A stretch of DNA of 6,803 nt. Origin: an uncultured Eubacteriales bacterium. GTDB taxonomy: Bacteria; Bacillota_A; Clostridia; Christensenellales; Aristaeellaceae. The notes beneath the pieces are model-generated. The model was not told the origin of the DNA and ran no database searches. It worked only from the letters and a program-made list of their open reading frames with translations. A program made the position numbers and the translations under genes. Shown piece after piece: positions 1 through 6,803 of this stretch. Within the stretch, counting starts at the first letter, position 1, and the number at the start of each line of letters is the position of its first letter. The stretch lies in contig CACYNZ010000274.1 of the NCBI GenBank assembly GCA_902775835.1, positions 1 through 6,803 of the forward strand. The letters are read 5' to 3'.

Positions 1-1047
1 GATGTTGGCAAACCGGGCGGCCTGACTGGCGGCATCCGCTGCCATCATATTGGTGCTGTTGCCCAGGTCGATCATGGTACGGGAGAACTCAGCCAGATGC
101 TCATTCTCAATGCCCAGCTGACCAGCAATGGACATGACCTCCGCGATATCTTCTGCGGAAGCGGCAACCTCAGTACTCATCTGCTTCACGGAGTCAGAGA
201 GCTTTTCATATTCCTCTTCTGTGGCATCCACGGTCTTCCGTACATCAGCGAAGGCGTATTCATAGTCAATGCTGGCTTTTACGGCGGCGGTACCAAGGCC
301 GATGATGGGCGTAGTGATGTTCCGGGTGAGCGTTTTCCCGGCTTTGGTCATGGCCTTGGAGATGGTTTCGCACTTCTTGCCGATCGCCGTCAGAGCTTCA
401 CCAGCCTGTGTCCATGCGGATTGCATCCGGTACAGCTGTTCTGTCAGTCTGCGGATCTCTGCCTCCGTTTCCCGGACGCCTGCCTTTGCATTGTTCAGGT
501 CAGTAGTGGCCTTAGAAACCGTGTCGGCGCTGTTCTGCATGGTTTTCTGGAGCGCTTTGACCTGACCTTCCAGTTTGGTAACCTCTGCCGTGGTATCCTG
601 GTATTCTTCCTGATACCGCTCCATGTTCTGCTTTGCGGCGATGGTCGCGGAGTCGGTCTCGCCAAGGGTATCCCGATACTGCTCATATGCAAAAGTGGCA
701 GTCTCCACTTCAAAGCGGAGGGCTTCCTGACGGGCCTTGGCTTCATCCAACCGCTGGGAATAATCCTGATGGCGGTTATAGTTTTCTTTCAGTTTATCGT
801 TGGCGGCAACGAGCGCCCGGCTGTACTGTTCCACAGCCCGGTTCTGCTGGGTGAGCTTATTTCCCAGCATGGAAAGCTTCGCTTCGGTTCCTGCAATGGT
901 CTTTTCAAAGTTCTCCACACCCGCGCCAGCCAGACGGAAGGTGGACTCGGCTTCCTTGATCTGCGCGTTGATGGTACGCATATTGCGCGAGAAATTGCTG
1001 GAGTCCAGCGACAGCGCGACTACCAGTTCGCGCAGGGTTTCGGCCAT
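1..1047 (-). CDS. Phage tail tape measure protein, N-terminal 349 residues (continues past window edge)
   Basis: The tape measure protein sets tail length, fills the tail tube during assembly and is ejected with the DNA. The reading frame is open without a stop from ATG at 1047 to base 1, giving 349 residues. The start is fixed by GAAGGTG (1061-1055), seven bases before the ATG. Residues about 25-225 are rich in Glu, Gln, Lys and Ala in heptad-like spacing, as expected of a long coiled coil. From about residue 262 (YEYAFADVRKTVDAT) through ATEEEYEKLSDSVKQMS and SIAGQLGI the sequence matches the TP901-type tape measure core (PhageMin_Tail family). The family is usually much longer, so most of the gene lies outside. 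It follows the tail chaperone, as is usual, but is separated from it by an opposite-strand gene. The family call is firm; the length is unknown. Confidence 0.95.
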   Translation of the reverse strand, partial: MAETLRELVVALSLDSSNFSRNMRTINAQIKEAESTFRLAGAGVENFEKTIAGTEAKLSMLGNKLTQQNRAVEQYSRALVAANDKLKENYNRHQDYSQRLDEAKARQEALRFEVETATFAYEQYRDTLGETDSATIAAKQNMERYQEEYQDTTAEVTKLEGQVKALQKTMQNSADTVSKATTDLNNAKAGVRETEAEIRRLTEQLYRMQSAWTQAGEALTAIGKKCETISKAMTKAGKTLTRNITTPIIGLGTAAVKASIDYEYAFADVRKTVDATEEEYEKLSDSVKQMSTEVAASAEDIAEVMSIAGQLGIENEHLAEFSRTMIDLGNSTNMMAADAASQAARFANI

Positions 1048-1067
1048 AAGTTTTCACCTTCTTTTCC

Positions 1068-1096
1068 TTGCGGTATAAGAGAAAATCAGTTATGAT
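1068..1096 (+). promoter_or_regulatory. Sigma70/SigA-type promoter for the opposite-strand cargo gene
   Basis: A -35 element TTGCGG (1068-1073) and a -10 element TATGAT (1091-1096) are separated by exactly 17 bases. The -10 matches the consensus at five of six positions and the -35 at three of six. Transcription would start near 1103, leaving a leader of about 37 bases that holds the AAAGGAG ribosome site of the gene at 1140. This is a sequence match only. It lies in the short divergent gap upstream of the tape measure gene, where a separate promoter is not normally needed. Confidence 0.6.
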
Positions 1097-1102
1097 GGTC
1101 AA
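1072..1102 (-). promoter_or_regulatory. Possible minus-strand promoter for the tape measure gene
   Basis: On the minus strand TTGACC (1102-1097, five of six -35 matches) is followed after 18 bases by TTATAC (1078-1073), or after 19 by TATACC (1077-1072). Both -10 versions are weak and the spacing is slightly long. Transcription would start near 1066, just before the GAAGGTG ribosome site. If real, it overlaps the plus-strand promoter back to back and would supply tape measure message independently of the late operon. This is a weak call. Confidence 0.3.
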
Positions 1103-1123
1103 TATCAGACAAGCGCAAAAATG

Positions 1124-1130
1124 AAAGGAG
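1124..1130 (+). promoter_or_regulatory. Ribosome binding site that decides the start of the cargo gene
   Basis: AAAGGAG ends nine bases before ATG at 1140. The in-frame TTG at 1131 directly abuts this site and so cannot use it, and the ATG is immediately followed by the Lys-Lys of a standard signal peptide. The ATG at 1140 is therefore the start. Confidence 0.8.
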
Positions 1131-1139
1131 TTGACCCCA

Positions 1140-1523
1140 ATGAAGAAGACCATCGCACTGGCACTTTCCGTTGTCCTCGTCCTCGTTTCACTTTCATGCA
1201 TCGCTCAAGCTGAAGAAGGCCCTAAGTTCGTTACCATTCAGGAGTGGCTGGATGCCAAAGGAGAATGCGGCGACTGCATGCTCGTTCTGAAGGTTGTGCA
1301 GGAACTGAATCCCACTGTTGCTCTCGTAGCAGATGAAACCGGGACAGCCAACCTATTCTCCGGTATCAATGAGGAAAGCTCGTTTATTGAATTCATGAGT
1401 CAAGAAACCGGGCCCAAGGTAGGATATATCTTGGTCATTGCTAATCCGAAGTACAACGAATATGAAGGAAACATCGAGATGGCAGCATGGACACTGCTAC
1501 GGATGCTTCCTGTTATCGAGTGA
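1140..1523 (+). CDS. Small exported OB-fold-like protein; moron-type cargo gene against the late operon
   Basis: This 127-residue protein begins with a clear signal peptide: Lys2-Lys3, a hydrophobic run at residues 5-19, then A22-Q-A24 before Glu25-Glu26, which fits signal peptidase I cleavage after residue 24. It should be released to the cell surface or outside. The mature part, about 103 residues, has the strand pattern of an OB fold: TIQEWL (32-37), MLVLKVV (47-53), TVALVADETGTANLF (59-73), GYILVIAN (95-102) and an EYEGNIEM turn (107-114). The 'vaLvaDEtGta' and 'Y.G..E' signatures resemble secreted OB-fold proteins of Clostridia. C43-G-D-C46 are the only cysteines after cleavage and could form a disulfide or bind metal; a thioredoxin-like reading is less likely. 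It is the only plus-strand gene, with its own promoter and terminator, and its stop lies one base from the stop of the converging chaperone frame. The exact function is not known to me. Confidence 0.85.
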   Translation: MKKTIALALSVVLVLVSLSCIAQAEEGPKFVTIQEWLDAKGECGDCMLVLKVVQELNPTVALVADETGTANLFSGINEESSFIEFMSQETGPKVGYILVIANPKYNEYEGNIEMAAWTLLRMLPVIE

Positions 1524-1546
1524 ACTACGGCTTCACCGATTTCCAT

Positions 1547-1583
1547 ACCTCGTCGATGAAAGCACGGCGAGGTTTTTTCTTTT
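1547..1583 (+). terminator. Intrinsic terminator of the plus-strand cargo gene
   Basis: On the plus strand CCTCGTCG (1548-1555) pairs with CGGCGAGG (1565-1572): eight pairs with one G-T wobble around a nine-base loop, extended by one A-T pair (1547 with 1573). A T-run TTTTTTCTTTT (1573-1583) follows. It lies 24 bases beyond the stop of the gene at 1140-1523. There is no T-run on the minus strand, so it acts in one direction. It lies within the 3' coding sequence of the converging chaperone extension, where the complement encodes the Lys-rich KKKPRRAFIDEV segment. Confidence 0.75.
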
Positions 1584-1643
1584 CCGCTTCCCGCTGAGCG
1601 TCCCATGCCCGCAGACGCAGGAAGCCCAGCATGTCCATTTCGT

Positions 1644-1729
1644 CGATTTCCTTCATACGCCAGCCATTTTTCATCAGTTCGTTATACGATTTCCTTCATA
1701 CGCCAGCCATTTTTCATCAGTTCGTTATA
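1644..1729. repeat. Perfect 43-bp tandem duplication
   Basis: Bases 1644-1686 and 1687-1729 are identical over all 43 positions and directly adjacent. The flanking bases (t1643 against a1686; c1687 against g1730) differ, so the unit is exactly 43 bp. Since 43 is not a multiple of three, it shifts the reading frame of the chaperone extension and places TAA at the junction. Two copies is not a CRISPR or iteron arrangement; it looks like a duplication by replication slippage. Confidence 0.97.
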
Positions 1730-1755
1730 GGTGGCATAAACATATTCCGGCAGCG

Positions 1756-2145
1756 TCAGGGTTCCTGTTCGATCTCCTTCAGGATCTGTTCCGCTTCCTG
1801 CGTCACCGGAATCGTAGGGAAAGAATCCAGCACCTCTGTGGTCTGGGTCTGAACCGCCATCAGGGCCAGCGCGATATCATGCATCAGCCGGTCGGCGGGA
1901 TAATTGTCGTACACTTCATCCGGGGTGAACTGGTTGTTGAACAGGATGCAGAACCATTTCACCATCGTATCCAGCGCGTCCGTCACGGTCATCTGTTCAG
2001 CGGATACGTCTTTGCCTTCCACGGCATCCTGAGACAGACGCACAAGCCTGCCATACACCTTCGCGGCAGGTTCCATTTCTCGAAGCGCTCTGCCGGAAAC
2101 AAAGTCCATGGTGTATTTCTTTTCACCAAGCGTACAGGTGATCAT
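1756..2145 (-). CDS. Tail assembly chaperone (gpG-like, zero-frame product)
   Basis: Tail assembly chaperones bind the tape measure protein and bring major tail protein to it during tail building; they are not part of the finished virion. The protein is 129 residues, MITCTLGEKKYTMDFVSGRA onward, with the TAC-family pattern of a short beta start (GEKKYTMDF), a helical middle (ALDTMVKWFCILFNN), then FTPDEVYDNYPADRL. The ATG at 2145 is chosen because GGAGGAA (2158-2152) ends six bases upstream; an in-frame ATG ATG at 2163-2158 lies before that site and has none of its own. It sits between major tail protein and tape measure, the standard place. It ends at TGA (1758-1756), but a slippery heptamer at residues 109-110 should send a fraction of ribosomes into the longer extension. 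Confidence 0.9.
   Translation of the reverse strand: MITCTLGEKKYTMDFVSGRALREMEPAAKVYGRLVRLSQDAVEGKDVSAEQMTVTDALDTMVKWFCILFNNQFTPDEVYDNYPADRLMHDIALALMAVQTQTTEVLDSFPTIPVTQEAEQILKEIEQEP
1816..1822 (-). promoter_or_regulatory. Slippery heptamer for programmed -1 ribosomal frameshift (T TTC CCT)
   Basis: The chaperone frame reads TCT TTC CCT at residues 108-110, giving T TTC CCT (1822-1816), an X XXY YYZ site in the correct phase. After a one-base slip the two tRNAs re-pair on TTT and CCC, and the -1 frame is then open into the T-type extension. An AGAGGTG run (1837-1831) ends eight bases upstream and could act as a stimulatory Shine-Dalgarno, as in dnaX. Downstream only a weak five-pair stem TTCCG/CGGAA (1811-1807 with 1793-1789) is seen. 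The lambda gpG/gpGT precedent supports the role. Confidence 0.7.
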
Positions 2146-2165
2146 GTTTATTTCCTCCATCACAG

Positions 2166-2205
2166 AATAAAAAGCTGCCGCACAGCGTCATGTCTATGCG
2201 GCAGC
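2166..2205 (-). terminator. Intrinsic terminator after the major tail protein gene
   Basis: On the minus strand GCTGCCGCA (2205-2197) pairs perfectly with TGCGGCAGC (2182-2174), and three inner pairs (one wobble) can extend the stem to twelve. TTTTTATT (2173-2166) follows directly. It lies 13 bases after the major tail protein stop and 20 before the chaperone start. A terminator here would keep major tail protein message high while letting less through to the chaperone and tape measure, which are needed in few copies. Confidence 0.85.
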
Positions 2206-2218
2206 GGGGTTATGGGGA

Positions 2219-2827
2219 TCACGGGGTGAAGCTGGGCGTGTACACGCTCGTCAGGAAGGTTTCACCCTTCTCAGCCGTGAAGCCGTTCTCGCCCTCATCG
2301 GCAACCGCCTGATAGCGTCCGTCATGGGTGCGCTTGATGGCAGTCCATTCCACATCACCGGTCTGACGGGTGATGGTGGTGCCTTCCTTGGTGGCGTAGT
2401 TCTCGGTCAGGGGTTTCGCCCGTACCTTGTACAGCCACACATAGCGGAACTTGCCGTTGGACTTCTCGCTCTTGAAGCCGACCGCGAAATACGGAGGCTT
2501 GTCGGAAGCCGAACGGATCAGGACGCCATTGTCGTCGATCTCGTTGCCGAAGATCTTTTCCTGAATGGCAAGAGGGATATCTGCCATCTTCGTGGTGAAG
2601 GTCAGTTCAGGATCAGGGTACAGGACGTCGAACTCGATGTCATCCGCATACTGGATATCCGGGTCGGAGTTCTCCGGGGTGATCGTCGCTTCAATCGCGC
2701 CAGCCACCAGTTGGAGATCTCCATAGGTCAGGGTTTCCTCGGTGTCGACCGTCAGCGGCGCGATCACCATGTTCTTCAGGCCGACCGTGGAAGAAACGGT
2801 CGGAGAAGCAGCAGGAGTATTAGCCAT
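2219..2827 (-). CDS. Major tail (tube) protein, phi13 type
   Basis: This protein polymerises to form the tail tube. It has 202 residues, about the usual family length. It carries the marks of the phi13-type major tail family: GLKNMVIAPLTVDTEETLTY (residues 16-35), AGAIEATI (42-49), QYADDIEFD (59-67), and PPYFAVGFKSEKSNGKFRYVW (111-131) leading into LYKVRAKPLTENYATKEG. The ATG at 2827 has GGAGG nine bases upstream. It follows the gp10-like gene by 18 bases and is followed by a strong terminator, which fits its need for high copy number. No extra Ig-like C-terminal domain is present: the protein ends at TSVYTPSFTP. Confidence 0.93.
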   Translation of the reverse strand: MANTPAASPTVSSTVGLKNMVIAPLTVDTEETLTYGDLQLVAGAIEATITPENSDPDIQYADDIEFDVLYPDPELTFTTKMADIPLAIQEKIFGNEIDDNGVLIRSASDKPPYFAVGFKSEKSNGKFRYVWLYKVRAKPLTENYATKEGTTITRQTGDVEWTAIKRTHDGRYQAVADEGENGFTAEKGETFLTSVYTPSFTP

Positions 2828-2845
2828 AGTCGTTTACCTCCATGT

Positions 2846-3256
2846 TTATTTGTTCTTCAGCTCGTCTCGCAGGACGCGCTTCATTTCGTTGTAGGCCTCA
2901 TCGGCCCGGGTATCAAAGGCAGGCCGGACAAAAGGATGCGCGGGAGCCGGAGCAGGGCCTCCGTGTCCAAACTCCACAGGGTTGGCGTAGTAAGCGCCGT
3001 TCTCCGAGTGGTGGACACCGATGGTGATCTGTTTCCCGCTGCCGCGCCGTTTTTTGACCTTGCCGGTGTGAATGGAAGAGTGAAGGGCATCCGTGATGAT
3101 CTTCGGGTCAGTGCTGGCGTTATGCAGCATCTGCTGTTCGATGGGAACAGCACCAGCCTTCAGGGCACGGTTCACACCAGGGCCCTGATCCAGCGCATAA
3201 GCCATGTTCACCAGATCATCCTTAAGATCGTCAAAGCCTCGCAGCTCAATTGCCAT
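2846..3256 (-). CDS. HK97 gp10-like neck/tail completion protein
   Basis: This 136-residue protein belongs to the HK97 gp10-like family, found between head-closure and major tail genes and thought to act in the neck or in tail completion. It opens MAIELRGFDDLKDDLVNMAY (a helix) and has the family core NGAYYANPVEFGHGGPAPAPAHPFVRPAFD (residues 86-115), with the diagnostic V-E-F-G and P-F-V-R-P-A-F motifs, then a charged C-terminal helix. ATG 3256 is preceded by GGAGG with nine bases between; a longer in-frame extension to 3424 is only read-through of the overlapping upstream gene, and ATG 3265 (MWTM) is too close to the GGAGG. It overlaps the upstream gene by 11 bases. Confidence 0.9.
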   Translation of the reverse strand: MAIELRGFDDLKDDLVNMAYALDQGPGVNRALKAGAVPIEQQMLHNASTDPKIITDALHSSIHTGKVKKRRGSGKQITIGVHHSENGAYYANPVEFGHGGPAPAPAHPFVRPAFDTRADEAYNEMKRVLRDELKNK

Positions 3257-3611
3257 AGTCCACATCCTCCCTCCAGCACCATGTCCACTGAACCGTGTAC
3301 TGCCGGGTAGCTGTGTCATACGCAGGCTGGTTATAGCCCTTATCGGATTCCTCCACCATGAAGAATCCATAAGCGTACATAGCTGCCCGGATCGTATCCG
3401 CCATGTCAGTCGGGTCGATATCACTCCACAGGTTCAGGTACACATAGGTTCTGATGGATGAAACGTGATCATCCTGATGGGATGCTTCCGTAGTGGTGGT
3501 GGAATAAACGCAGTACTGCACGGGCGGATTCTGGTTGGGCGAAGTGGCCCGCCAGACGCCTGCGTAAACCGGAATTCCGATATCCTTGAGCGCCTGCTGT
3601 ACCTGTCTCAT
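3246..3611 (-). CDS. Tail terminator/tail completion-like protein
   Basis: This 121-residue protein begins MRQVQQALKDIGIPVYAGVW and contains PPVQYCVYSTTTTEASHQDD (residues 29-48), TYVYLNLWSDID (55-66), an IRAAMYAYGFFMVEES helix-turn (74-89) and YTVQWTWCW (105-113) near the end. The order of strands (a 'vqYcvYs' strand, a 'tYVylNLWs' strand, a helix with a following glycine, then a final 'ytvqWtw' strand) resembles tail terminator proteins of the SPP1 gp17 / HK97 gp9 type, which cap the tail tube and join it to the head. The ATG overlaps the head-closure stop as ATGA (four bases) and has AGGGGG upstream. In many related phages the gp10-like gene comes before the terminator; here the order is the reverse. 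The assignment rests on position and pattern. Confidence 0.7.
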   Translation of the reverse strand: MRQVQQALKDIGIPVYAGVWRATSPNQNPPVQYCVYSTTTTEASHQDDHVSSIRTYVYLNLWSDIDPTDMADTIRAAMYAYGFFMVEESDKGYNQPAYDTATRQYTVQWTWCWREDVDYGN

Positions 3612-3967
3612 CCGCTCACCCCCTTGGCAAGGGAAGCCTTCAGGCCGAGATAGGTGCGTTTGAAGCTATACTCGCCCAGAGTGGAGATGTTCCATTTCTC
3701 TCCCTGAAAGCGCACCCACATTCCGGGCTTGATGTCTTCCCGGTACCGGATGGTGAAGTTGATGACGGCCTCAGTGTTCATGACGTCGGCGCTGCGATAG
3801 TGCTGGTTTCCTGCATCCGTCACAGCGGCCCAGACCCTGCAGACCACAACATCCGTCGGTTCAGGATAGCCGTTTTCATTGATCTGGTTCTCGGTGTACC
3901 CGATTTCAATCTTGTGTCGGAGATCCCCTGGATGCGGGTCACTTTCGAAGTTCTTATAACCACGCAA
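3608..3967 (-). CDS. Head closure / head-tail joining protein (SPP1 gp16-like), TTG start
   Basis: This 119-residue protein matches the phage head-tail joining family that plugs the connector after DNA packaging: GDLRHKIEI (residues 14-22), ENGYPEPTDV (31-40), VWAAVTDAG (45-53), NFTIRYREDIKPGMWVRFQG (70-89), then KWNISTLGEY and TYLGLKA. The start is TTG at 3967, supported by GGAGG (3981-3977) nine bases upstream. An ATG at 3974 lies in another frame and runs only six codons, and no in-frame ATG precedes the conserved GDLRHKI. The upstream connector ends 15 bases before, and the next gene overlaps by four bases (ATGA), so the two are probably translationally coupled. Confidence 0.88.
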   Translation of the reverse strand: MRGYKNFESDPHPGDLRHKIEIGYTENQINENGYPEPTDVVVCRVWAAVTDAGNQHYRSADVMNTEAVINFTIRYREDIKPGMWVRFQGEKWNISTLGEYSFKRTYLGLKASLAKGVSG

Positions 3968-3982
3968 ACAGCATCACCTCCG

Positions 3983-4291
3983 TCAGAACATTTTCTCGGG
4001 ATCACGGTACCGGTACAGCAGATTGTCAAACGCCATCCGGGTCGCTTTGTAAGTGGTCATGTCCGGGATATCCCGGTTCTCATAGTAGAAGCTGGCCATG
4101 AGAATCACAGCCAGCCGCACAGGCTCAGGAGCATCGGGAATGTTACCTTCCTCGTCAGGTTCCTCAAAGGATACCCGGCAGTAATCCTCCGCTTCAGCCT
4201 GAGCCTGTTTGATCAGACTTTCGATGTAGTCGTTCTCCTCATCATGCTCGATTCGCAGGTGGGTTTTGACTTCATCAACGGTGACGATCAT
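3983..4291 (-). CDS. Head-tail connector (HK97 gp6-like adaptor)
   Basis: This 102-residue protein has the gp6-type connector pattern: an N-terminal helix-turn 'VTVDEVKTHLRIEHDEEND' (residues 3-21), a long helix DYIESLIKQAQAEAEDYCRV (21-40), an acidic loop, then PEPVRLAVILMASFYYENRD (55-74) and a terminal AFDNLLYRYRDPEKMF. These proteins form the adaptor ring below the portal. The ATG (4291-4289) shares one base with the previous gene's TGA (TGATG) and has only a weak GGCGGTGG upstream, so translation is likely coupled to termination of the upstream gene. Confidence 0.9.
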   Translation of the reverse strand: MIVTVDEVKTHLRIEHDEENDYIESLIKQAQAEAEDYCRVSFEEPDEEGNIPDAPEPVRLAVILMASFYYENRDIPDMTTYKATRMAFDNLLYRYRDPEKMF

Positions 4292-4611
4292 CAGGTACCA
4301 CCGCCCTCAGTTCCTTCGGCGGGCGTTTCAGGATCAGTGGCCTCAGGCTCTGTCGCGGCAGGCGCGGTCGCGGACAGCACTCCGGCGGTACGCAGGGCAG
4401 CCAGCAGGCTGTTGAAGTCAGTCTTCAGGGCCGCTACGGTGGTTGCCTCACTGTCAGCCACATAAGGAGCGGTGCCGGATGCGGCAGCCCCGCTCGTGCT
4501 GCCGGGAAAGTTCTCGACCTCCGCGCCTTCCAGAAAGGTCAGCTTGCCGCCGATTACCAGTTGCTCACCGCCATGGGCAAAGTAGTTCTTGGTGTTATAG
4601 GTGTTCGCCAT
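4291..4611 (-). CDS. Head fibre-like protein (phi29 gp8.5-type N-terminus)
   Basis: This 106-residue protein opens MANTYNTKNYFAHGGEQLVI and GGKLTFLEGAEV (residues 21-32), a beta-rich start, then a Gly/Ala/Ser linker, the conserved TTVAALKTDFNSLLAALRTAGVL segment (57-79), and a low-complexity acidic and proline-rich tail ending in GGGT. This is the pattern of small head-fibre proteins that Bacillota phages often carry right after the capsid gene. Their proposed role is decoration of the capsid surface; this is known from phi29 and is inferred here. ATG 4611 has AGGAGG eight bases upstream. The tail (ATEPEATDPETPAEGTEGGG) has no visible fold. Confidence 0.75.
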   Translation of the reverse strand: MANTYNTKNYFAHGGEQLVIGGKLTFLEGAEVENFPGSTSGAAASGTAPYVADSEATTVAALKTDFNSLLAALRTAGVLSATAPAATEPEATDPETPAEGTEGGGT

Positions 4612-4624
4612 AACTCATTCCTCC

Positions 4625-4660
4625 TTAGAGAAGAGAGCCGCACATGGCAGTACGGCTCCC
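4625..4660 (-). terminator. Hairpin between capsid and head-fibre genes; weak terminator or message stabiliser
   Basis: On the minus strand GGGAGCCGTAC (4660-4650) pairs with GTGCGGCTCTC (4643-4633), eleven pairs with two G-T wobbles, around a six-base loop. TTCTCTAA follows, which is T-rich but not a proper T-run. It lies after the capsid double stop (TGA TAA, 4678-4673) and before the AGGAGG of the next gene. The stem is solid; whether it attenuates transcription or protects the 3' end of capsid message is inference. Confidence 0.5.
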
Positions 4661-4675
4661 ATGATCGTTGGGTTA

Positions 4676-5869
4676 TCAGGCCTTCACAGCCAGGCACTTC
4701 ATGGCCTCGGCCAGTACCAGACGGCCATCCACACGCTGAGTGGCGCGGAAGCCGACCTGACCGGTGACGGCGAAGAGCTCATTCAGGCGCTGGAAGGAAC
4801 GGCCCTGACGATCGGCAATCCAGTAGGACTTAAAGTCGCCGAACAGGATCACCTTATTCCCGGCGGAGATCTCCGGCATGAACGGAGAGGTCACCAGCCG
4901 GTAATTCAGCAGAGTATCCGGCTGGCCTTCCTTGATGCCGGGCTGCCACAGGTACTGACCCTGACCATCCTTCAGCTTCCGGATGGCCTTCAGGGTGCTG
5001 TCGTTCAGCAGGAAGACCGCCTTCTTCCGGTAAACACTCTTGATGGAATGCACCAGATCGAAGAGCTCATCGGCAGCGATGGTAGTACCCGCAGTGGTCA
5101 CGCCGGTGCCCGCGCCGTTGGTGGCGTGGAGCAAACCGGTAGGCTTGCCAGTGCCATTGCCGGTGATGAAAGCTTCCTCTTCGGCGGCACCGATCCGGCG
5201 GGCGAACTCAGCTGCAATATAGGACTCGATGTTGAAAACAGAGTCCTGCAGCAATTCGTCAGACACCTTGATCATGGTGGCCACTTTGTGAGCGCCGATG
5301 GAGATCTGACCAAAGGCGTCGTCGCTTTCGGGAATAGTGCCTTCCTCATCCACCCAGGACGCGGTACCGTGGGACGCCACAATCGGGATCTTCCGGTCGC
5401 CGGAGCTGGTCTGGATGACGGTGCACAGGGAACGGAGAACATTCTCCTCCTCAAGGCCCTGCACCAGAGTACGTTCATACTCGTCCGGCACAAGGTAGCC
5501 GCCCTCAGAGTCAGTACCGACCTGCAGGGCGTTCATGACGGCAGGGCTGGCAGAACGGTTCCGGATCATGCCCCAGAAGGCTTTGCCGTACTCATCGGAG
5601 GCACGGCCCATCTTCTGGTTATCCGCGCCATTGGGGCGGGAGACCAGAGGAGCAGCGGTAGGCTGATCCATCTCACGATCGATCGCAGCCTGACGCTCCA
5701 GCCGTTCGATTTCTTTGCCGAGGGCAACCACATCGGCCTCCATTTTCTCGTAGGTCGCATTGTCCTCAGCGGAGACCATGCCATCCTCACCACGATGGCT
5801 GTCCAGGAAAGCCTTAGTCTCATTCCACAGGTTGGCACGCTTTTCGCGCAGAGCAAGAATCTTGTTCAT
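4676..5869 (-). CDS. HK97-type major capsid protein with N-terminal delta domain
   Basis: This 397-residue protein builds the icosahedral head. Residues about 1-70 are a charged coiled coil (ALREKRANLWNETKAFLDSH; EKMEADVVALGKEIERLERQ), the delta domain that acts as a built-in scaffold and is removed by the head protease. The mature part shows HK97-family marks: GTDSEGGYLVPDEYE (118-132), GTASWVDEEGTIPESD (168-183), EEAFITGNGTGKPTGLL (231-247), and a C-terminal YRLVTSPFMP, IADRQGRSF and VGFRATQRVDGRLV. ATG 5869 has AAGGAGG eight bases upstream; a longer in-frame start at 5890 lies before that site. It follows the protease by 17 bases. Whether the mature shell is cross-linked as in HK97 cannot be seen. 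Confidence 0.95.
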   Translation of the reverse strand: MNKILALREKRANLWNETKAFLDSHRGEDGMVSAEDNATYEKMEADVVALGKEIERLERQAAIDREMDQPTAAPLVSRPNGADNQKMGRASDEYGKAFWGMIRNRSASPAVMNALQVGTDSEGGYLVPDEYERTLVQGLEEENVLRSLCTVIQTSSGDRKIPIVASHGTASWVDEEGTIPESDDAFGQISIGAHKVATMIKVSDELLQDSVFNIESYIAAEFARRIGAAEEEAFITGNGTGKPTGLLHATNGAGTGVTTAGTTIAADELFDLVHSIKSVYRKKAVFLLNDSTLKAIRKLKDGQGQYLWQPGIKEGQPDTLLNYRLVTSPFMPEISAGNKVILFGDFKSYWIADRQGRSFQRLNELFAVTGQVGFRATQRVDGRLVLAEAMKCLAVKA

Positions 5870-5886
5870 AGTGATATCCTCCTTCA

Positions 5887-6657
5887 TCATTTCAAAAGCG
5901 ACAGCCGCTTTTCCAGGTCTGCCGCTTTCACTCGGTTATCAGGGGTAATGGTTTCGGGTTCCTCAGGGGTGGGTTCCGGATCGGGTGGGTGCTCTGGCTC
6001 CGCCTGCATCACGGGCATCGGCTTTGGCATCGAAGCGATCACCCGGTTCATGAGGCAGGCAGCAGCGGATTTCCGCTCAAAAGAAAAACCCGCCATATCT
6101 TCAGGCAGGTCTTCAGCGCCAGTGTACAGGACTTCATCGCAGAAGCCCATCTCCTTTGCCTTGAGAGCATTCATCCAAGTTTCGCTGTCCATGAGATGGG
6201 AAATCTTCGCCCGGCTCAGCCCGGTCTTGATCTGGTAAGCATTGATAATGCTTTCCTTTACCTCGTCCAGCAGCTGGATGGCTTTCCGCATCTCTTCCGT
6301 ATCGCCCATGGCCATCGTGAAGGGATTGTGGATCATCATCAGACTGGTGGGACTCATGGTCACACGGGTTCCGGCCATGGCAATGACGGACGCTGCAGAG
6401 GCTGCCATTCCGTCGATCTGAATGGTGACGTCGCCGGGGTAATCCATGAGCATGGTGTAGATCTGGCTGGCCGCAATGCAGTCACCGCCGGGAGAATTCA
6501 GGTGAATAGTAATGGGGCCGTTCCCGGAGAAAAGCTCCTCCTTGAACATGGCAGGTGTGATGTCGTCAGCGAACCAGGATTCTTCGGCGATCACACCCTC
6601 CAGATACAGGGTACGGGATTCATCCTCGTTGCGGACCCAGTTCCAAAAGTGTCGCAT
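5887..6657 (-). CDS. Prohead protease, ClpP-like (peptidase S14 phage type)
   Basis: The protease degrades or trims the capsid delta domain during head maturation. The 256-residue protein has the ClpP fold signature: HLNSPGGDCIAASQIYTML (residues 52-70), IDGMAASAASVIAMAG (81-96) with nucleophile Ser87, MMIHNPF (107-113) with His110, and MDSETWMNALKAKEMGFCDEV (156-176). The place of the ClpP aspartate appears to be Glu159, with Asp157 close by, as in other phage S14 proteases. After about residue 215 there is a proline- and glutamate-rich linker (EPEHPPDPEPTPEEPETITPDN) and a short C-terminal helix DLEKRLSLLK, absent from host ClpP. ATG 6657 has GGAGG eight bases upstream and overlaps the portal stop by one base (TGATG). 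It sits between portal and capsid, the usual order. Confidence 0.94.
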   Translation of the reverse strand: MRHFWNWVRNEDESRTLYLEGVIAEESWFADDITPAMFKEELFSGNGPITIHLNSPGGDCIAASQIYTMLMDYPGDVTIQIDGMAASAASVIAMAGTRVTMSPTSLMMIHNPFTMAMGDTEEMRKAIQLLDEVKESIINAYQIKTGLSRAKISHLMDSETWMNALKAKEMGFCDEVLYTGAEDLPEDMAGFSFERKSAAACLMNRVIASMPKPMPVMQAEPEHPPDPEPTPEEPETITPDNRVKAADLEKRLSLLK

Positions 6658-6803
6658 CAGGGGTACCTCCTTCTTTCGGGATTGGATTGGGTTTGGGTGG
6701 TTGGCTCCGCATCATCCGCTGCCTGCTTCATGGCAGTAGTGATGGGGATCATGTTTCCGTTTACCAGATAAGCGTCGCCGCCTTCTTCCTTCGGGATCGG
6801 GTT
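6657..6803 (-). CDS. Portal protein, C-terminal 48 residues (start outside window)
   Basis: The frame is open from the window edge (6803) to TGA (6659-6657), reading NPIPKEEGGDAYLVNGNMIP then ITTAMKQAADDAEPTTQTQS and ending NPERRRYP. The GGD-YLVNGNMIPI motif is typical of the C-terminus of HK97-type portal proteins, the ring at the DNA-packaging vertex. Its position directly upstream of the protease, with a one-base TGATG overlap, supports this. Only the tail is in the window, so nothing can be said of the ring domains. Confidence 0.85.
   Translation of the reverse strand, partial: NPIPKEEGGDAYLVNGNMIPITTAMKQAADDAEPTTQTQSNPERRRYP

Follow-up and report, generated by a model that had tools for sequence, protein, structure and literature searches.

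What is a small plus-strand gene doing in the middle of a minus-strand phage tail operon? The question is raised by a stretch of DNA of 6,803 nucleotides (nt) from an uncultured Eubacteriales bacterium (assembly GCA_902775835.1, contig CACYNZ010000274.1, positions 1 to 6,803; hereafter the window), which carries the minus-strand head and tail operon portion of a prophage or phage and, running against it, a single open reading frame (ORF) of 127 residues, ORF127. An initial annotation had read ORF127 as a self-contained moron lying on the opposite strand between the tail chaperone and the tape measure genes, and the parts that it listed (promoter, AAAGGAG, 127-residue ORF, hairpin with T-run) were all found where it had placed them. 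Comparison with relatives pointed to a slot with turnover of its cargo, a preferred orientation, a fixed promoter position, an embedded terminator and at least two entries of ORF127 (or recombination among its copies). ORF127 is probably a moron, a gene of the host group that encodes a small, probably exported OB-fold protein and was captured in a recurrent slot supplying the promoter and an embedded terminator.

Cargo turnover at the chaperone/tape-measure junction

The place given to ORF127 by the initial annotation was supported by Pfam and PHROG matches of the neighbouring genes and by close relatives without the gene. Residues 1-349 of the tape measure, used as a query, matched 30 viral loci, and the junction was read in 29 viral loci (L083 starts inside the gene; L069 is without the chaperone). 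The viral contig L055 is 99.4% identical to the window at the tape-measure start, has no ORF127 and leaves 16 nt between the chaperone stop and the beginning of the tape measure, so that the two tail genes were adjacent in a relative lacking the gene, as had been anticipated. L056 (98.9% identical at the tape-measure start) carries a kinase and two further ORFs in place of ORF127, and L077 (96.8%) has a different ORF with a signal-like start in the slot. The annotation had named presence of the gene at the same place in all relatives as the outcome that would speak against it, and the opposite was seen, with the slot either empty or holding other genes. A need for ORF127 in virion assembly was rejected on account of these near-identical phages without the gene, which suggest that ORF127 may be dispensable for the lytic cycle.

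Junctions from a wider viral scan, from regions of family genomes and from the ORF127 loci came to 124 located and 68 distinct. Classed by ORF length, with gaps of up to 80 nt taken as empty, the 68 comprised 28 empty junctions, 29 with antisense cargo, 10 with sense cargo and one without an ORF, and the close set (n = 47), in which the tape-measure start shares 75% identity or more with the nearest of 13 queries, comprised 17 empty, 25 antisense, 4 sense and 1 unclear. Fewer than 101 residues of the tape-measure head were matched in 10 of the 68, mostly chromosomal remnants; the remaining 58 divided into 26 empty, 21 antisense, 10 sense and 1 unclear. L181 was classed as sense by summed ORF length, yet has the fixed antisense promoter described below and a 114-residue antisense ORF, and L063 and L064 have no convincing cargo; the computed classes were kept. 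The cargo ORFs listed numbered 45, of which 30 were scanned against Pfam and 19 gave a match at E 0.01. Antisense cargo families were protein kinase, GNAT (L057, L068, L192), methyltransferase, radical SAM, MarR, HicB, AbiEii, AbiEi, PIN, ParE, Phd, NUDIX and VanZ, with weak matches to HicA and M41, and sense cargo families were an alpha/beta hydrolase and a DUF218 protein. On this comparative evidence the junction is a recurrent cargo slot for unrelated genes, mostly in antisense orientation.

The cargos of L061, L181, L237 and L241, in slots or in chromosomes, are short proteins with 'ELSMDEL...GG' or 'ELTLDELNEVNGG', resembling double-glycine leaders by eye, and such cargos are possibly secreted peptides. 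Large gaps between the tail tube and chaperone genes were seen in L099, L110, L111, L169, L170 and L180, and a second insertion site may lie there.

A predicted promoter at a fixed position in the slot

Of the 25 close antisense junctions, 15 have a TTG.. box that starts 19-21 nt from the tape-measure start codon, with a second box (TATAAT, TAGAAT or TATGAT) beyond a spacer of 16-18 nt (17 nt in the window). The same arrangement occurs additionally in L062 (unclear class) and L181, and was found in 0 of 17 close empty junctions and 0 of 21 distant junctions. In three groups (L057/L062/L066/L195; L056/L074/L152; L058/L059/L068/L192) homology between slots with different cargo extends 57-98 nt from the tape-measure start, across the promoter and leader, and other slot pairs share less, often 25-57 nt. 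The position of this predicted sigma-70-type promoter is, on these alignments, a property of the slot.

Homology of the window to other slots stops after 26-33 nt, at or just beyond the -35 box, and its homology to copies of ORF127 at other sites sets in at 1082-1089 for six loci and at 1057 to 1120 for others, which places the join about the promoter spacer. Promoter-like boxes (TTGC.., TATNAT) were seen by eye 5' of most ORF127 copies, those in other contexts included. Judged by these boxes and by the fixed place in the slot, ORF127 has a predicted promoter of its own, as a moron should.

A putative terminator inside the chaperone coding sequence

The stop codon of ORF127 and the -1-frame stop of the chaperone (1525-1527) are spaced by a single base, and because of this the hairpin and T-run that follow ORF127 lie wholly inside the coding sequence of the chaperone C-terminal part. 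Folds of the last 30 chaperone codons, made on the antisense strand ahead of each T-rich stretch, were compared with 200 synonymous recodings, giving p ≤0.05 in 34 of 67 chaperone ends and in 28 of 46 in the close set. Hairpins at or below -10 kcal/mol were present at 36 of 46 chaperone ends of the close set, compared with 3 of 140 ends of seven other genes at the same loci and 0 of 46 when the sense strand of the chaperone end was folded. Stems differed between subgroups (CCTCG/CGAGG, CCCCGGC/GCCGGGG, CCCAAAC/GTTTGGG). A strong hairpin was found in 16 of 25 representatives of empty slots too, and, relatedness being ignored, in 21 of 26 slots with antisense cargo versus 2 of 9 with sense cargo. 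A putative terminator, such as a moron would be expected to bring with it, does follow ORF127, but it belongs to the chaperone coding sequence.

We doubt the alternative that the hairpin is not a cargo terminator at all, and either serves the sense messenger RNA (mRNA) or is a mere consequence of the protein sequence. Its presence in empty phages is what such an explanation would lead one to expect, and in 25 ends with a KKKPR motif the synonymous recodings already average a folding free energy (dG) of -7.6 to -13.0; against this, the hairpin is strong on the antisense side only, the differing stems of the subgroups arrive at the same form, and in seven of the nine sense-cargo junctions the hairpin is not strong. 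The view of ORF127 as a 'self-contained' unit stands only in part: a predicted promoter and a putative terminator are both present, but the -35 region is common to slots with other cargo and the terminator is that of the chaperone, retained in empty phages.

ORF127 protein and its family

Homologues of ORF127 numbered 859 proteins at E 0.001 or better, the best 120 of which were listed. Ratios of nonsynonymous to synonymous substitution rates (dN/dS) between ORF127 and nine relatives were 0.06-0.17; as these codon comparisons have it, purifying selection acts on the gene. The homologues, the dN/dS values and the recurring promoter-like boxes confirmed that ORF127 is a real gene beyond chance. 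Within the nearest family, 35 of 300 genomes had ORF127 (counted by genus, 12 of 50), and in an order-wide sample 6 of 297 genomes matched it, all six in the same nearest family. The record titles of 21 genome-contig loci with ORF127 name Clostridia or Clostridiales and, once, Ruminococcus, a title that leaves room for a second carrier family, and the animal-sample titles among them name sheep, goat or water buffalo gut.

The ORF127 protein has an OB fold, a CGDC motif at residues 43-46 and a signal-peptide-like stretch, by eye, at residues 1-25; the protein is probably exported. Searches of ORF127 against Pfam gave 0 families at E 1, and the four Pfam families hit by any of 38 members of its family included no OB or BOF family. 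PHROG gave no match, nor did PADLOC in a scan of ten proteins that included ORF127, and the PDB sequence search returned nothing useful (one match at E 1.2; none in a second search). YgiW of E. coli (PDB 1nnx), a periplasmic protein of the BOF family, has an OB fold in common with ORF127, from which it differs in that ORF127 does not match the Pfam family model. The lipoprotein attachment site LPAM_1 was present in one of the 38 members and absent from the window protein, which lacks this feature of Ltp-like lipoproteins. The homologues in L022 and L023 have an extra C-terminal part of ~90 residues.

Its OB fold, and the large number of homologues that lie outside phages, suggest that ORF127 is an envelope gene captured from the host rather than one dedicated to exclusion. 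A dedicated superinfection-exclusion or defence moron, in which exported ORF127 would block the entry of related phages in the manner of HK97 gp15, reportedly a superinfection-exclusion protein, appears unlikely to us. Only position and company favour this idea, the company being slot occupants of defence or toxin-antitoxin families (AbiEi/AbiEii, HicAB, ParE, Phd, PIN). As regards position, HK97 gp15 (AF069529) is likewise a single small moron-annotated gene of a siphophage, placed between the frameshifted chaperone gp13/14 and the tape measure gp16, but it shares the strand of the late genes and is annotated with a terminator of its own, whereas ORF127 is antisense, unlike a gp15-type gene, its putative terminator falls within chaperone coding sequence and the slot hosts many cargos. 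The 'reverse moron' of HK97, gp23, is present at another place. Also at odds with an exclusion protein are the lack of any PADLOC, PHROG or Pfam match and the spread of ORF127 through the family genomes, with most of the 21 loci lacking nearby phage genes by eye.

Copies of ORF127 in other phages and in chromosomes

Among the 21 loci, L016 has ORF127 in the same phage slot as the window. In L005 and L007 ORF127 is antisense within a tail cluster of the sheathed type (PHROG tail sheath, E 1.5e-54 and 5.3e-55) that also has a chaperone and a tube-like protein, so a chromosomal reading of every other ORF127 locus fails for these two, and the antisense cargo habit may span unrelated tail types. 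Slot remnants stand beside ORF127 in L006, L012, L024 and L025, and in the remaining 14 loci no nearby phage genes were seen by eye (family models were not applied). Between its chaperone and tape measure L007 has more small genes on the plus strand, which contain double-glycine-like stretches, and past the sheath it has a gene related to the L059 cargo (HELMH motif, by eye).

The window and L016 copies of ORF127 fell in different supported clades, among other copies, and constraining the two together cost 115 log units (p-AU of the approximately unbiased test, 1.75e-23), for a group chosen after inspection of the tree, which tells against the test. L016 clustered with L012 and L024 (support 100/99), non-phage copies that bear the initial 53 nt of the tape measure gene; this 53-nt stretch recurs in L025, and L006 has ~30 nt of it together with a chaperone-end remnant. 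Entry of ORF127 into the slot at least twice, or recombination of its copies there, would both explain this phylogeny. In L025 (5494-5907, minus strand) the first 17 tape-measure codons are in frame with a sequence resembling, by eye, a type I restriction specificity subunit.

Isolated slot ends were found beyond the ORF127 loci. Most of 21 further loci with a short tape-measure head have an antisense ORF directly upstream (exceptions being sense ORFs in L197 and L204, and L194, L200 and L203, which start or end too near). Among 33 loci searched for chaperone tails, chosen for having matches, a tail of 26-110 nt stands at the far end of the cargo in L184, L186, L196, L199, L201, L202, L233, L234, L236, L237 and L238; some 'TAC' matches in L168 and L202 were ignored, the queries having been cut at the wrong stop (L140). 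The natural empty junction was matched in 76 of 308 family genomes, an undercount since two candidates were scored in each, and a control junction (tube end with chaperone start) in 21 of those 76, with nine candidates scored in each. General phage debris as the source of isolated tape-measure heads is disfavoured by this control. Searches with capsid and tube gave mostly near-full-length matches and some pieces, many at contig ends.

These ends are most simply explained by prophage decay with retention of the cargo. A more speculative view is that the chaperone end and the tape-measure start are the two ends of an exchangeable cassette, with the tail-gene ends as homology arms and prophages swapping cargo with a chromosomal stock; units of promoter, antisense cargo and terminator might then be exchanged between prophage slots and the chromosomes of a single gut-bacterial family, like integron cassettes but without a dedicated integrase. 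That such units move, and are not left by decay, is possible, though we hold it to be well short of probable. Isolated ends in many chromosomes, a tandem pair beside a serine recombinase in L235 and two units in tandem inside the single phage slot of L168 are in keeping with movement; the varying end lengths (26 to 110 or more nt for chaperone tails; ~33 to 330 nt for tape-measure heads) argue against site-specific excision and leave a unit with fixed ends unsupported, and decay with retained cargo would look much alike. A block of ~4.0-5.7 kb in L187-L190 (four species of one genus) comprises a tape-measure head, an antisense 298-residue gene and a downstream 315-residue ORF, and shows 99.3-99.8% identity between L188 and each of the others, which indicates recent transfer.

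Evidence against a captured moron

Several observations weigh against ORF127 as a moron captured in a recurrent slot. Its export was judged by eye from sequence alone, and ORF127 was not found in the viral-contig and phage collections. A generic consensus scan missed both its promoter and its terminator, and the support for them is comparative. A stricter perfect-stem score gave p ≤0.05 in just 16 of 68 chaperone ends, the window among them (this score misses bulged stems, and folding was used in its place). The fixed-place promoter was absent from 10 of the 25 close antisense junctions, although one of the ten, L016, does have the promoter, hidden by its rearranged tape measure. Six of the 10 sense junctions belong to a more distant clade, and the Fisher tests on the junctions ignore relatedness.

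Both prophages that hold ORF127 in the slot, the window and L016, have a broken tail gene. The chaperone C-terminal part is intact in relatives and disrupted in the window by a duplication; the window prophage may be defective, or the duplication may be an assembly fault. An ordinary host gene family whose phage copies are accidental insertions in decaying prophages, the slot being insertion tolerance in dead prophages, would account for these broken genes and for most homologues lying elsewhere with a promoter of their own. We nevertheless think this improbable, the least credible of the alternatives, given slots with other cargo in viral contigs of up to 67 kb with the first 349 tape-measure residues uninterrupted, a filled slot in the phage record PV036454, and ORF127 antisense in the two sheathed tail clusters as well. 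Accident would not predict a fixed promoter position and orientation.

Features of the window

The minus strand of the window carries genes for a head maturation protease, the major capsid protein, connectors, the tail tube and the chaperone (Phage_TAC_19), together with the first part of the tape measure gene; positions are collected in Table 1.

Table 1. Positions of features in the window and in four further loci.
Feature	Locus	Position	Strand	Basis or remark
Tape measure gene, N-terminal part	Window	1..1047	-	PHROG 4704, E 8.2e-57; start at 1047
Tape-measure head, also beside some non-phage ORF127 copies	Window	995..1047	-	blastn; L012, L024, L025 from 995; L006 from 1018
-35 box TTGCGG	Window	1068..1073	+	Begins 20 nt from tape-measure start codon, like other filled slots
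-10 box TATGAT	Window	1091..1096	+	Like boxes 5' of ORF127 homologues
Ribosome-binding site AAAGGAG	Window	1124..1130	+	Counterparts 5' of homologues
ORF127, 127 residues	Window	1140..1523	+	ATG at 1140, stop 1521-1523
Chaperone C-terminal part, -1 frame	Window	1525..1755	-	Sequence and relatives; last residues ...EKKKPRRAFIDEVWKSVKP, then stop
Putative intrinsic terminator for plus strand, within chaperone coding sequence	Window	1547..1583	+	dG -15.0 kcal/mol, p 0.02 versus synonymous recodings
Hairpin, then T-run TTTTTTCTTTT	Window	1547-1573, then 1573-1583	+	Read in sequence
43-bp tandem duplication disrupting chaperone downstream frame	Window	1644..1729		Sequence and comparison with relatives
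Tail assembly chaperone, first part	Window	1756..2163	-	Pfam PF23857 (Phage_TAC_19), E 8.1e-11
Sheathed tail cluster with ORF127 antisense between chaperone and tape-measure-like start	L005	375-3742		
Sheathed tail cluster with ORF127 antisense between tube and chaperone	L007	2581-10162		
Tape measure split between frames, near transposase-like ORF	L016 (CACWXY010000061)	~4900-5900		By eye
Two tandem units (nucleotidyltransferase, methyltransferase) beside serine recombinase; tape-measure head and chaperone tail present in each	L235 (G198:C69)	2204-5458		

Comparison with known systems

Genes that oppose an operon have been described in other phages. A noncontiguous operon layout is reported for Tha/Ith of S. 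aureus 80alpha (PMC11087260), and taiEcA of phi80 is proposed to oppose the late operon (PMC11364771). Both resemble ORF127 in being own-promoter genes opposing an operon, with lysogenic and lytic transcription opposed, and differ in being single loci, where the ORF127 site is a reusable slot with a fixed promoter and an embedded terminator, known from sequence alone. ORF127, with its predicted promoter directed against the surrounding operon, has the layout of a noncontiguous operon. STMMW_20121 of the Salmonella prophage ST64B, antisense to lytic genes with its own promoter, is likewise a candidate accessory gene antisense to the lytic genes of a prophage; it is another gene of another phage, and no slot is described in the part of the source available (PMC7067206).

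The Christensenellales phage PV036454 (Ca. Heliusvirales) has two antisense genes between chaperone and tape measure, which by eye look like cargo of L202 and L140 (ParE and Phd), and its chaperone end contains an antisense hairpin with a T-run; it differs in its cargo, which is annotated as hypothetical proteins only. In the phage record PV036419 the slot is empty. Full-text searches of open-licence PMC papers listed none whose title or abstract opening describes a reusable antisense slot of this kind, its terminator embedded in chaperone coding sequence.

Proposed working of the slot and its significance

In the lysogen, the late operon would be off and the slot promoter on, and the transcript would stop in the chaperone end, leaving less antisense RNA against the tail genes. 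After induction, late transcription would cross the slot in the opposite direction and shut the cargo off, as in a noncontiguous operon. The ORF127 protein would work on the outer side of the membrane, as a factor for host fitness or for the envelope, and superinfection exclusion may be one possibility among several.

Morons are usually reported singly, whereas here a single site in a phage group accommodates many unrelated genes, most of them oriented alike, and the slot itself appears to provide the promoter position and the terminator, the latter on the antisense strand of a tail gene. The slot predicts where to seek lysogen-expressed genes (toxin-antitoxin, defence and envelope factors) in gut phages, and offers a testable case of cargo that would be kept on in the lysogen and off during assembly. 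Loose slot ends in chromosomes would give a handle on how cargo is gained and how it is retained after the prophage is lost.
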